Assembly: GCF_030409055.1 (NCBI RefSeq)
Contig: NZ_CP116619.1
Location: 839,628 to 903,627 of the forward strand
DNA: 64,000 nucleotides
Direction: 5' to 3'
Source: Trichocoleus desertorum NBK24
GTDB lineage: Bacteria > Cyanobacteriota > Cyanobacteriia > FACHB-46
This document shows positions 9,711-16,478 of this stretch, one piece after another. The notes under the pieces are model-generated. The model saw nothing but the letters and a program-made list of their open reading frames with translations, did no database searches and was not told the origin of the DNA. The first letter of the stretch is position 1, and the number at the start of each line of letters is the position of its first letter. Position numbers and translations under genes: made by a program.

Positions 9711-9926
9711 ATGCTGGCACATCGTATTGAAACCACGATCACGCAAAACGGAACCCTTACGTTAGAGAATTTGCCATTTCATTCTGGGGAGCTAGTTGAA
9801 GTTATTATTCTGGCTCAACCCCACAGAGCATTAGAGCAAAATAGGTACCCCCTACGAGACACTAAAATTCAGTACACCAACCCCCTTGACCCGGTGGATC
9901 AAGATGAATGGGAAGGGTTGAAATGA
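9711..9926 (+). CDS. VapB-type antitoxin of the IS-disrupted pair
   Basis: 71 residues. The N-terminal half reads as an AbrB/VapB-like short beta segment (I-E-T-T-I-T-Q-N-G-T-L-T-L-E-N-L-P-F) and the C-terminal half is acidic, ending in D-P-V-D-Q-D-E-W-E-G-L-K. The stop codon TGA overlaps the ATG of the following PIN-domain gene (ATGA), so translation is coupled. The antitoxin ORF is intact while its toxin partner is broken by an insertion sequence, so it may now be an orphan repressor or antidote. Confidence 0.7.
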   Translation: MLAHRIETTITQNGTLTLENLPFHSGELVEVIILAQPHRALEQNRYPLRDTKIQYTNPLDPVDQDEWEGLK

Positions 9927-10058
9927 TCGTGCTTGATACTCATATCTGGGTGTGGTGGGTTCATGGAGATAGTCAACTTCCTGAACAGTATCAGCAGTAT
10001 ATTCAGGGGCAAGAATCTCAAGGTTTGGGTATCAGTGCTATTTCCTGTTGGGAGATTG

Positions 10059-10063
10059 CTAAG
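10059..10063. repeat. Direct repeat CTAAG, left flank of insertion element
   Basis: CTAAG occurs immediately left of the element and again at 11376-11380 immediately right, as expected for a target-site duplication. The boundary could shift so that the repeat is TAA with the inverted repeats starting GGAG. Both readings restore the same vapC sequence. Confidence 0.75.
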
Positions 10064-11375
10064 GAGGTTTCTGGCAAAGAATTTACCCAAGTCTTAAGAT
10101 CGATGTCATCCTCCTAAAAACAAGGAGCAAGCGTTTGGAAAGCCTCAATTGTTCTGAAACCTCACTCACTGCTTCTCAAATTGACGATCTATGTTTGGCA
10201 GCCTCCAAAATGAGCGGGGCGGCTCGTCGGAGCTATCAAGCGCAGATGACGTTGAAGTATTGTGACGGGAATGCTCGCATGGCTGAGCGTGTGTTTGGGT
10301 GGGGCCGAAACAATATCGAAGTGGGATTAGCAGAACAGCGCAGTGGCATCATTTGTGTCGGCGCTCAAGCGGGCTATAGCGGGAGCAAACGATGGGAGGA
10401 GAAGCACTCTGAAGTGGCAGCAGCGTTACGAGCACTGGCAGAAGCGCAGGCTCAACAAGACCCAACGTTTGAAAGCTCAGTCGCTTACACCCGATTAACG
10501 GCTCAGCAAGCATTAGCATAACTACGCCAGCAGGGATTTGCTCCAGAGCAGTTGCCAGTGCCTAGTACAATGGCCGTGATTCTCAATCGGATGGGGTACC
10601 GATTGCAACCCGTGGTGAAGGCGAAACCCCAAAAAACTTCCCGAAACAGACGCCATCTTTGACAACATCAGCGCGAAAGATTCCGGTTCAAACAGCGGTC
10701 GTGTCAAACGATTAAGCATTGACTGCAAAGCGACGGTTGCCATTGGGGAATATTCACGAGGTGGAAAAACCAGGGGCAATATCAAGGCGAGTGATCATGA
10801 TATGGGCTGTGAGGAAAAATATATTCCCTGTGGCATTGTGGATGAGGACAGTGGACAATTGCATATCTTCTTTGGTAGTTCCTACAAAACGAGTGATTTC
10901 ATTGTCGATACGCTTGAAAATTGGTGGAATGGACTGTCTAGCACTCAGCAAGCAAAGACTAAACGCTTGCAACTGAAAGTAGATAACGGAGCGGAAAGTA
11001 GCGGGATTCGGACCCAATTCCTCAAGCGGATGGTCAAGTTTTCAGACCAAATTGGCAAGCCCATTCAGTTGCTTTATTACCCGCCATATCACAGCAAATA
11101 CAATCCAATTGAACGATGTTGGGGAATTTTGGAACAACATTGGAACGGCACTCAATTGAAGGATGCAGAGACGATGCTGCAATGGGCGCGAAGTATGACT
11201 TGGAAAGGGATTCATCCCATCATTCAATTGAACCAAAAGTCTTACTTAAAGGGAATCTCCCTTAGCAAAATGGAGATGCAAAGAATCGAAAATAGACTGG
11301 AACGCAATCCTGATTTACCGAAATGGGATATCCTGATTCGACCCGCTAGTGGGTAAACTCATTCTTGGAAATCTC
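10064..11375 (+). mobile_element. ISAzo13-family insertion sequence, 1312 bp, transposase decayed
   Basis: The termini are imperfect inverted repeats of 25 bp (10064-10088 and 11351-11375). They share GAG, TTTC and the inner TTTACCC and match at 18 of 25 positions by eye. The element is flanked by CTAAG direct repeats and lies inside a PIN-domain toxin gene. It carries one transposase gene of the ISAzo13 type on the plus strand, broken by a stop and a frameshift. The transposase stop codon lies inside the right inverted repeat. Confidence 0.88.
10135..11356 (+). pseudogene. ISAzo13-family transposase with in-frame stop and frameshift
   Basis: The frame starts at TTG 10135 and runs 128 codons (M-S-G-A-A-R-R-S-Y-Q-A-Q, then C-D-G-N-A-R-M-A-E-R-V-F-G-W-G). 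A TAA at 10519-10521 interrupts it; the same frame then continues L-R-Q-Q-G-F-A-P-E-Q-L-P. At the A-run 10631-10636 the family sequence continues in the +2 frame (K-K-L-P-E-T-D-A-I-F-D-N) to 11356. DDE-type residues are all present: Asp in L-S-I-D-C-K-A, Asp in K-V-D-N-G-A-E and Glu in Y-N-P-I-E-R-C-W-G. Restoring one codon and the frame would give a full ISAzo13 transposase of about 406 residues. As read, it is not functional without recoding. Confidence 0.85.
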
Positions 11376-13573: not shown

Positions 13574-14737
13574 CTATTCTGCGATCACTTCCAAACTAAC
13601 CTTGACTTGATGCTGACAGGTTTTATTAAAAGCTTCTTCAATTTTGGGGAGCCAGCGTTGATTCACCCGAAACAGGGCACTAGAGCTAATACCAATTCTG
13701 GCTTGATGACCATCAAAAGATAAAAGGCGACTTTGTTGACGGAGTAAAGACTGAGTGCTAGGAGGCCGTAACTGATTAAGAACCTTTTGCCAGAGTTGGT
13801 TCAAGTCTAAAGGTAGCTCTGGTTTTGGTTGCGGAGGCAATGCTGGTATTTGAGGCTCTTGTTTCTGAGCTTTTAGCTCTTGAATCGCAATTTCTAAACT
13901 AGTTAATTGCTCCCAAGATAGCGGATATTGCCACGAACCAATTTGGATAGAGAGTGAAGAACTAGTAAATTCTGAGGTGTAATCCAATTGAGCTTTGGGA
14001 GAGTTGAACTGTAAGGATTGAGCTTGAATAAACTCAATAAAACTTCGTAATCCCCCACCATAAAGCAGGTCTTCTAGACCCAACACGGCTTGACCATCTT
14101 GTAACTGGATCATTCCAGTCGGTAAGAAACCCGCTAAAAATAAATGGTATTCAGGTTGAGCTTCATTCACTTCCTCCCGAATCCAAATACAAACCACTAC
14201 AGAGTTCTTTTCAACTTCGTCTTTACTAACAACCCACTGAATTTTGTTAGCTTTGGTGTGCGAAGCTTTGACCTGAATACTAATTGCTGGGTTGGCTGCT
14301 AAACGCAAATAGCCAATAGGAAACAAATCTCCTGTTAAATAGCGGCTGAGATATTGGTAGCTGCGAATATAAGTAATAAATAGCTTCCACTGGCGAGCAT
14401 CAAAAGCTGCGCTCGTATCGTTACCTGTAATATCACGATAGCTACCTTTCGCGACCAAATTACTCAACTGTCTTTTAATGACAGATTCCCCCAGCTTTCC
14501 AGTTAGATGATTGATAAAGACATCATGTACTGGGGCCGTATTTTTGTAGCGCTCAGCCAATAGCCAACAAGCATCTCGAAGCTTTTTAAGTCTTTGATTG
14601 CTGACAAACGCTAATTCACTAAACTGATTTTCGACTTCGCAAAATAGCAGATTTTCTGTCCCAGACTTGAACCGCTTAATAAAGTCAGCCTGTTGGGATC
14701 TCAGCAATGTTTTCCAATCCATGCTCAGGGGTCTCAA
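13574..14737 (-). CDS. Unusual protein: nuclease-fold-like N-terminal region plus DnaX tau-like C-terminal domain
   Basis: 387 residues; a second ATG at 14722 (M-D-W-K-T-L-L) may be the start. Residues about 70-215 have a pattern reminiscent of PD-(D/E)XK-type domains: G-K-L-G-E-S-V-I-K-R helix, a later I-S-I-Q-V-K-A-S strand, and hydrophobic strands V-V-V-C-I-W-I and Y-H-L-F-L-A-G-F. A Pro-rich linker (about 292-311) follows. The last 75 residues, L-W-Q-K-V-L-N-Q-L then S-L-L-R-Q-Q-S-R-L-L-S-F-D-G-H-Q-A-R-I and V-K-V-S-L-E-V, closely resemble from memory the C-terminal domain of cyanobacterial DNA polymerase III tau. The AAA+ part of DnaX is absent. Function is unknown; a role near the replication machinery is inference. 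Downstream of ubiD on the same strand with a 35-base gap. Confidence 0.6.
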   Translation of the reverse strand: MRPLSMDWKTLLRSQQADFIKRFKSGTENLLFCEVENQFSELAFVSNQRLKKLRDACWLLAERYKNTAPVHDVFINHLTGKLGESVIKRQLSNLVAKGSYRDITGNDTSAAFDARQWKLFITYIRSYQYLSRYLTGDLFPIGYLRLAANPAISIQVKASHTKANKIQWVVSKDEVEKNSVVVCIWIREEVNEAQPEYHLFLAGFLPTGMIQLQDGQAVLGLEDLLYGGGLRSFIEFIQAQSLQFNSPKAQLDYTSEFTSSSLSIQIGSWQYPLSWEQLTSLEIAIQELKAQKQEPQIPALPPQPKPELPLDLNQLWQKVLNQLRPPSTQSLLRQQSRLLSFDGHQARIGISSSALFRVNQRWLPKIEEAFNKTCQHQVKVSLEVIAE

Positions 14738-14772: not shown

Positions 14773-16281
14773 CTAGCGCATATCGTAACCGAACAAGTTC
14801 GGATTCACCTCGCCCAATTGCAAATTTGCGAGACCATATTCTGCCCAACGGCGATCGACCATTGCTGCGGTATCTGGGTCAGACTCCAACGCTGCGCCCC
14901 ATTCGTGATTGGTTTCGGGTGGGATCTTAGTTGTGGCATCAATGCCCATCCGACCGCCCAAGCCAATTTTCTCACTAGCAAAATCGAGCGTGTCAAAGGG
15001 AGTTTCTGGCAGGATAAACACATCTCGCACCGGATCGACTTTGGATGTAATCGCCCACACCACCTGCCGCGGATCGCGGATATTGATGCTTTTGTCCACC
15101 ACAATCACAAATTTGGTGTAAGTGAACTGGGGCAGCGCACTCCAGAACGCCAATGCTGCCCGCCGCGCCTGACCCGGATAAGCTTTGTCAATGGAAATGA
15201 TGGCCGCTTTGTAGCTGAGCGCTTCCATCGGCAAAAAGAAATCAACGATCTCAGAAACTTGTTGCCTCAGAATTGGGGTGTAAATGCGGTTAAGTGCGAT
15301 CGCCATCATCGCTTCTTCTTTCGGTGGCCGACCGCTGAAGGTAGTGAGGTAGATCGGGTCTTTGCGCTGGGTGACACAGTGAAAGCGAACCAAGGGCGAA
15401 TCTTCTACCCCACCGTAGTAGCCCATATGATCACCAAACGGCCCATCAGGTAGCATTTCTCCGGGGGTGATCGTGCCTTCTAAGACAAATTCAGAGTCCG
15501 CTGGAACTTCGAGGTCAACGGTTTTACACTTCGCCAGATTCACCCCAGAACCGCCATACAGCCCTGCGAACAGCCATTCTGACAAGTCTACTGGGATTGG
15601 CGTAGCCGCTGCCATGATGATGAGTGGATCGACACCTAGGGCGATCGCTACTTCTAGCTTTTTACCTCGCTCTGCCGCTTTGCGTAAGTGTCGCGCCCCA
15701 CCCCGGACAGAGAGCCAGTGCACTGTCATCGTTTTGTTCGATTGCAGTTGCAGCCGATAAACCCCGACATTCGGAGTTCCAGTTTCACAGTCTTTGGTAA
15801 TCACCAATCCCAGCGTGATGATCTTGCCTGCATCGCCACAGTAAGGGCGAATCATCGGAATTTGGTTGAGATCTAATTCATCTTCGTGAAGCACGACCTG
15901 GTGACAAGGGGGAAACAAATCTCGCCCTGGTTTAGCTCGCAGCACATCAAACAAAACTTTGCCAAACTCTACCGCTTGAGCAATTTTTTTAGGTGGCTTG
16001 GGCTGTTGTAACATGCTGAGCTTTTTCCCCAAAGCTTCTAGTTCTTCGGGTTGCTCCATATTCATAGCCCAGCAGATGCGCTCCACTGTCCCCATTGTGT
16101 TGACAGCGACCGAATAAGGAGAACCTTTGACGTTCTCAAACAGTAGGGCTGGCCCGCCTTGCTGCAACATTCGATTAGAAATTTCAGCAATCTCTAAGTC
16201 TGGGTCAACCAGAGCAGAAATGCGTTTTAGCTGCCCTCGCTGCTCTAACTGTTTTAAGAATCCTCGCAGGTCTCTCGCCAT
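14773..16281 (-). CDS. ubiD: UbiD-family decarboxylase (4-hydroxy-3-polyprenylbenzoate decarboxylase)
   Basis: 502 residues from the ATG at 16281 (M-A-R-D-L-R-G-F-L). A longer frame from 16332 begins with residues not found in the family. Recognised by the N-terminal D-L-R-G-F-L-K-Q-L-E, G-P-A-L-L-F-E-N-V-K-G, the E-F-V-L-E-G segment, G-P-F-G-D-H-M-G-Y-Y-G and the late D-P-D-T-A-A-M-V-D-R-R-W. UbiD uses prenylated FMN (made by UbiX) to decarboxylate an aromatic acid. In cyanobacteria this step is assigned to plastoquinone synthesis. Flanked downstream by the DnaX-tail protein, with no ubiX in view. Confidence 0.92.
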   Translation of the reverse strand: MARDLRGFLKQLEQRGQLKRISALVDPDLEIAEISNRMLQQGGPALLFENVKGSPYSVAVNTMGTVERICWAMNMEQPEELEALGKKLSMLQQPKPPKKIAQAVEFGKVLFDVLRAKPGRDLFPPCHQVVLHEDELDLNQIPMIRPYCGDAGKIITLGLVITKDCETGTPNVGVYRLQLQSNKTMTVHWLSVRGGARHLRKAAERGKKLEVAIALGVDPLIIMAAATPIPVDLSEWLFAGLYGGSGVNLAKCKTVDLEVPADSEFVLEGTITPGEMLPDGPFGDHMGYYGGVEDSPLVRFHCVTQRKDPIYLTTFSGRPPKEEAMMAIALNRIYTPILRQQVSEIVDFFLPMEALSYKAAIISIDKAYPGQARRAALAFWSALPQFTYTKFVIVVDKSINIRDPRQVVWAITSKVDPVRDVFILPETPFDTLDFASEKIGLGGRMGIDATTKIPPETNHEWGAALESDPDTAAMVDRRWAEYGLANLQLGEVNPNLFGYDMR

Positions 16282-16478
16282 AATTAAGATGTGTAAACCG
16301 TCCTCTCCCATTATGAGGTGAAACCTGGTCACTATTTGACGAGAGAAGAAGTTGAGCGTTCAATGATAAATTATGTCTCTCGAATGCTGTGTCAGACTGC
16401 CTGGTGGGTAGCATAGTGCCAGATCCGTGCGCCTGATCGAGCGCTTTAGGTTCCCCTCTGGCAAGTGCGACGTCCGTT

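Follow-up and report, generated by a model that had tools for sequence, protein, structure and literature searches.

A nuclease-like protein with a DnaX-type tail in Trichocoleus desertorum, and the same tail on other effector-type proteins of cyanobacteria

What could a cyanobacterial protein do that joins a nuclease-like region to the tail of the clamp loader? The question is raised by one gene in a stretch of 64,000 nucleotides from Trichocoleus desertorum NBK24 (hereafter the window). A sequence-only reading had placed a minus-strand open reading frame at 13574-14737 and proposed that it fuses a PD-(D/E)XK-like nuclease region to a DnaX tau-type C-terminal domain. The location of the frame was confirmed. 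It had been read from a TTG at 14737, which adds five residues to the product of an ATG at 14722; the ATG is the likely start, since MDW also opens relatives in other families (Table 1). Orthologues, for which a search had been suggested, occur at 94-98% identity throughout the genus (three genomes), and the two-part architecture of N-terminal domain and DnaX tail recurs in three further lineages (G601, G429 and G446). Comparison with the two congeners gave dN/dS values of 0.03 and 0.05 (Nei-Gojobori). The fusion gene is under strong purifying selection and is functional; orthologues and dN/dS together rule out a frame or assembly artefact. Nor is it a displaced piece of DnaX, because a complete, intein-bearing DnaX is encoded elsewhere in the same genome. 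No PADLOC model matched the window protein up to E = 1. A viral or phage source was considered and rejected, as no relative of the protein was found in phage records, nor of its N-terminal domain in IMG/VR.

Table 1. Features of the fusion gene and its upstream neighbor (window coordinates)
Feature	Position	Strand	Description
Fusion protein CDS	13574..14722	-	382 aa, ATG start at 14722; supported by dN/dS
N-terminal domain, residues 1-235	14018..14722	-	Unnamed cyanobacterial family with PD-(D/E)XK-like signature; from family alignment
GKLGE helix motif, residues 75-79	14486..14500	-	E79 invariant across family
Residue 106	14405..14407	-	Ala in window, Asp in 28/28 Nostocales relatives; presumed metal-binding Asp lost
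Insert, ~32 residues (within 107-140)	14303..14401	-	Common only to window genus and G601
QVK motif, residues 150-152	14267..14275	-	QxK form of ExK
Linker, residues 236-303	13814..14017	-	Fastest evolving part, dN/dS 0.13-0.20
DnaX domain V/DnaA domain I-like tail, residues 304-380	13583..13813	-	pLDDT mostly above 90
ubiD	14773..16332	-	Directly upstream of fusion gene, same strand, 50-bp gap; UbiD identity confirmed

The C-terminal part is homologous to the tau-type domain of DnaX, as had been claimed, in both sequence and fold. Residues 306-378 matched PF23007 (E = 1e-14; 54.8 bits, cut-off 27) and residues 284-379 matched the DnaX model NF011510 (E = 1.6e-15), so the resemblance lies well clear of background. 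By sequence this is the same domain as DnaX tau domain V (E. coli 2AYA and 5FKU; PF23007 in cyanobacterial DnaX). The tail is 48% identical to that of the separate DnaX of its own genome, and it retains 86% of the 28 columns conserved across 56 DnaX tails, compared with a median of 75% for DnaX itself. AlphaFold modeled residues 301-380 with pLDDT mostly >90. Among solved structures, the best fold matches of this model were DnaA domain I with SirA (4tps, Z 11.4), DnaA with HobA (2wp0, 9.3) and DciA bound to DnaB (8a3v, 8.4). DnaA domain I and DnaX domain V, which have been described as interacting with DnaB, reportedly have a KH fold in common with DciA (PMC9912922). The linker preceding the tail holds a short beta-beta-alpha element at residues 258-286.

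DnaX has an AAA+ part and a C-terminal extension, whereas the fusion has neither. No match to AAA+ clamp-loader domains I-III was found within its 382 residues, which bears out the original remark that this part is missing. The window protein stops 1-2 residues after the tail domain and the fusions as a group within 1 to 11, whereas full-size cyanobacterial DnaX frames, where examined, run on for another 115-229 residues. Their extension, absent from the fusions, carries a (K/R)xLAxFFNGxVV-type motif and often an acidic tip. As a separate observation, many cyanobacterial DnaX proteins (L036-L059, L069) have an acidic ...DDVPF end that resembles the C-terminal tip of SSB. In E. coli, the last 23 residues of tau bind the tail of the polymerase (alpha). 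Homology of the FFNG motif to this alpha-binding end was considered and is not supported, as the motif HMM missed tau and reported shuffles. Because the chain ends right behind its tail domain, with the DnaX extension missing, delivery to DnaE, which the sequence-only reading had proposed, is weakened and is no longer the leading model; DnaB would be at least as likely a partner of the tail.

The DnaX of the window genome (L069, G000:C1:1575500-1580500) contains an intein (Intein_splicing, 161-593). DnaX frames measured 1256 and 1264 aa in G000 and G387 and 808 aa in G386, which suggests that some members of the genus have the intein and others lack it.

No model in Pfam, NCBIfam or PADLOC matched the N-terminal domain. 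Its family (N-family below) occurs mainly in Nostocales, where most matches are proteins of ~500-560 aa with C-terminal TPR repeats; in other members the attached parts are GUN4 domains, WD40 repeats or, at the N-terminus, pentapeptide repeats, and one plasmid copy sits under a DnaJ-domain annotation. The GKLGE (75-79) and ISIQVKAS (148-155) segments on which the nuclease proposal was built are present and fall within the most conserved columns of this family, which is found across cyanobacteria. The conserved core reads GKLGE ... GGDGKVDF ... (E/Q)VK. E79, D102, F107, V151 and K152 do not vary among the 29 alignment rows (window plus relatives), and E79, DGxxD and K152 are kept in each of the 28 Nostocales relatives. 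Helix E, DGxxD and E/QxK follow the same order and register as in Mrr-like and other PD-(D/E)XK nucleases (Mrr_cat, PF04471), although the N-family lacks an HMM match to any nuclease family. A cyanobacterial Mrr_cat set aligned with the N-family motif in register and scored 22.47, above the maximum of 21.98 in 150 column shuffles; however, the hhalign probability was only 5.8%, weak in absolute terms. We therefore label the family PD-(D/E)XK-like, with a putative nuclease fold proposed from its motifs. DUF4365 was rejected as the closest family of nucleases, since equally high scores came from 8 of 150 shuffles. Searching the PDB with an N-domain profile returned chance matches only, and AlphaFold gave a mean pLDDT of 56 for the window protein (mostly <60 in the N-terminal part) and 41 for a canonical relative. 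In G429 and G446 the nuclease-like domain is preceded by a further ~115-120 residues that the two proteins have in common (L035 814-1180; L180 5249-5597) and that had no match in Pfam.

The window copy differs from its family at the putative active site. D106, the closing residue of DGxxD in all 28 relatives, is replaced by Ala in the window and both congeners, and by Ser in G601, a distant relative (47% identity) and the only other one bearing the insert that directly follows this position. The D ... (D/E/Q)xK signature is thus borne by the family and broken in the window copy, where Ala stands for Asp. Between congeners, the insert showed no nonsynonymous changes, compared with 8 and 12 synonymous ones. 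With its catalytic Asp replaced and a conserved insert of ~32 residues after it, the window copy is probably non-cutting and, judging from the sequence, most likely not a nuclease. What stands of the original proposal for the N-terminal half is the PD-(D/E)XK-like signature of the family; an active nuclease is not supported for the window copy.

The gene neighborhood is also retained. In G601 the fusion gene again lies directly downstream of ubiD on the same strand (6-bp gap), and a search of the minus strand between the two genes in the window showed no terminator-like site. Fixed beside ubiD, conserved and probably non-cutting, the window copy looks domesticated. Elsewhere in the window, a DDE_Tnp_ISAZ013 transposase fragment (10802-11356; 2e-57) is flanked by miaA and a carbonic anhydrase gene and is absent from the same place in the two congeners; a frame at 10135-10521, with no Pfam match, may be its leading part. 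A short PIN-domain frame just below the Pfam cut-off (9908-10117) follows a 71-aa frame at 9711-9926, and these two are possibly a broken toxin-antitoxin pair.

Occurrence of the tail outside DnaX was surveyed with PF23007 or the tail alignment against 388 and 386 overlapping sampled genomes, reading the odd-sized frames. Among the matches listed, which were the best ~150 per search and make the count a lower bound, at least 15 non-DnaX proteins carry the tail. Six of them, among the matches listed, belong to the N-family: the three in the window genus and those of G601, G429 and G446, the last with four tail copies. The others include at least two TIR proteins, each of which ends in a pair of tails (G559 and G575; TIR_2 at 5e-24 and 1e-21), at least one HamA-like protein with two tails (G472), at least one CoiA-type nuclease (G167; CoiA_nuc 1e-4, passing the cut-off), at least two MUG113-type proteins (G157 and G262; MUG113 3e-5, passing the cut-off, G262 being placed by its near-identical tail only) and at least three stand-alone copies (G039, G099 and G336). 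In the TIR, HamA-like, CoiA-type and MUG113-type proteins, one to four tail copies sit at the end of the chain. The HamA match in G472 is weak (0.0015), and its neighbor is HamB at 3e-45, as in Hachiman (HamA-HamB); no HamB lies next to the window protein, which is not itself HamA. The same stretch of G472 (L293, G472:C6:300000-318000) contains TnsB, TniB and TniQ genes and an N-terminal fragment of HsdM. To judge from these sequences, the DnaX tail is a portable module.

Several candidates were excluded from this count: fourteen further short PF23007 frames proved to be DnaX fragments, and, of the second copies of ~460-510 aa, three were on translation short DnaX paralogues. Short second DnaX paralogues in several families (L258, L264 and L265; frames of 458-508 aa) end soon after the DnaA_N-like domain.

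The resemblance of the tails to host DnaX differs among these proteins. By alignment score, and with p values that ignore relatedness, each of the four TIR tails had its five best DnaX matches within the family to which its host belongs (hypergeometric p 1e-4 each), as did the three best matches of the CoiA-type tail (p 4e-4), and the tails of G429 and the last G446 copy leaned to own-family DnaX (p 0.06 and 0.006). No own-family preference was seen for the HamA, MUG113, stand-alone and window tails. Since the DnaX of its own genome ranks only 15th of 56 for the window tail, host matching is not seen for the window copy. A test of a single origin for the tails of the N-family fusions gave p-AU 0.22 (tree of 78 columns). 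The simplest reading of the TIR and CoiA-type cases would be repeated capture from the host's DnaX.

Cyanobacterial multi-domain conflict proteins are known to shuffle REase-fold, TIR, GUN4, TPR and pentapeptide modules on single polypeptides (Kaur et al. 2020, PMC7159879; PMC8195603). Neither of these surveys of conflict systems in cyanobacteria and multicellular prokaryotes mentions DnaX or DnaA, and the open-access literature gave no account of a DnaX tail joined to a nuclease, TIR or anti-phage protein. The DnaX tail appears to be new as a partner module of conflict-type proteins. The sequence-only reading knew of no described system with this architecture, which holds for the open-access literature searched; yet the architecture is no singleton, given the tails on TIR, HamA-like, CoiA-type and MUG113-type proteins.

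Our best explanation, which we hold tentatively, is that a nuclease-type effector gave rise to the fusion protein, which serves as a docking adaptor. Its tail would bind a surface of the replication machinery that DnaX domain V also uses; the candidate partners are DnaB and the DnaE fingers domain. The N-terminal domain of the window protein, having lost the catalytic Asp and gained the insert, would bind DNA or a partner rather than cut. Where relatives keep the site intact, and likewise in the TIR, HamA-like, CoiA-type and MUG113-type proteins, the effector would be active and the tail would bring it to the replication machinery, where its target would plausibly be invading DNA. We infer this partner, location and function from the features described above.

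Other explanations account for part of these data. An active nuclease carried to the replisome by way of the DnaE polymerase, like the contact of the tau tail in E. coli, would fit G429 and G446, which combine an intact DGxxD...QVK site with DnaX tails; given the Ala at the catalytic Asp throughout the window genus and the missing DnaX extension, the last 23 residues being what binds the polymerase tail in E. coli, we consider it quite improbable. Alternatively, the tail could be an integrated bait that mimics host DnaX (or DnaA), so that phage factors attacking or recruiting the replisome bind to it and switch on the attached effector. Host-like tails on TIR and nuclease effectors, tandem degenerate copies in G446, paired copies in the TIR and HamA-like proteins, and a HamAB locus adjoining Tn7-type transposition genes and an HsdM fragment are all in line with such a role. 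It is nevertheless unlikely, as no phage factor is known here that targets cyanobacterial DnaX, the window protein has no PADLOC match, and its conserved, syntenic and probably non-catalytic form is unlike a fast-evolving immune receptor.

About equally doubtful is that the tail is a mere oligomerization or folding module re-used from DnaX, with no replisome partner. The tail does exist alone and in tandem, the linker before it is loose and fast evolving, N-family domains elsewhere bear generic interaction modules (TPR, WD40, pentapeptide repeats, GUN4), and a KH-like fold can also serve oligomerization; but the window tail keeps most DnaX-conserved columns, and a neutral module would not need the match to own-family DnaX seen in TIR and CoiA-type tails. 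Least probable is a factor linked to UbiD and plastoquinone synthesis. The two genes do adjoin on one strand in the window genus, and in distant G601 as well, with no terminator-like site detected between them on the minus strand in the window; relatives with the same N-terminal domain or tail are not beside ubiD, however, and nothing in the protein points to quinone metabolism.

The docking adaptor may also be part of a wider pattern, which we regard as possible but rather unlikely in its full form: cyanobacteria would repeatedly weld their own clamp-loader tail to nucleases and TIR domains, giving immune effectors that travel with the replication machinery or stand guard over it, with the window protein as a domesticated, non-cutting member. 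If the tail docks, DNA- and NAD-targeting effectors would be joined to the replication fork, which invading DNA must pass. This would represent a new principle by which bacterial immunity is aimed or triggered, and would also provide a short domain with which to reveal what DnaX domain V binds in cyanobacteria.
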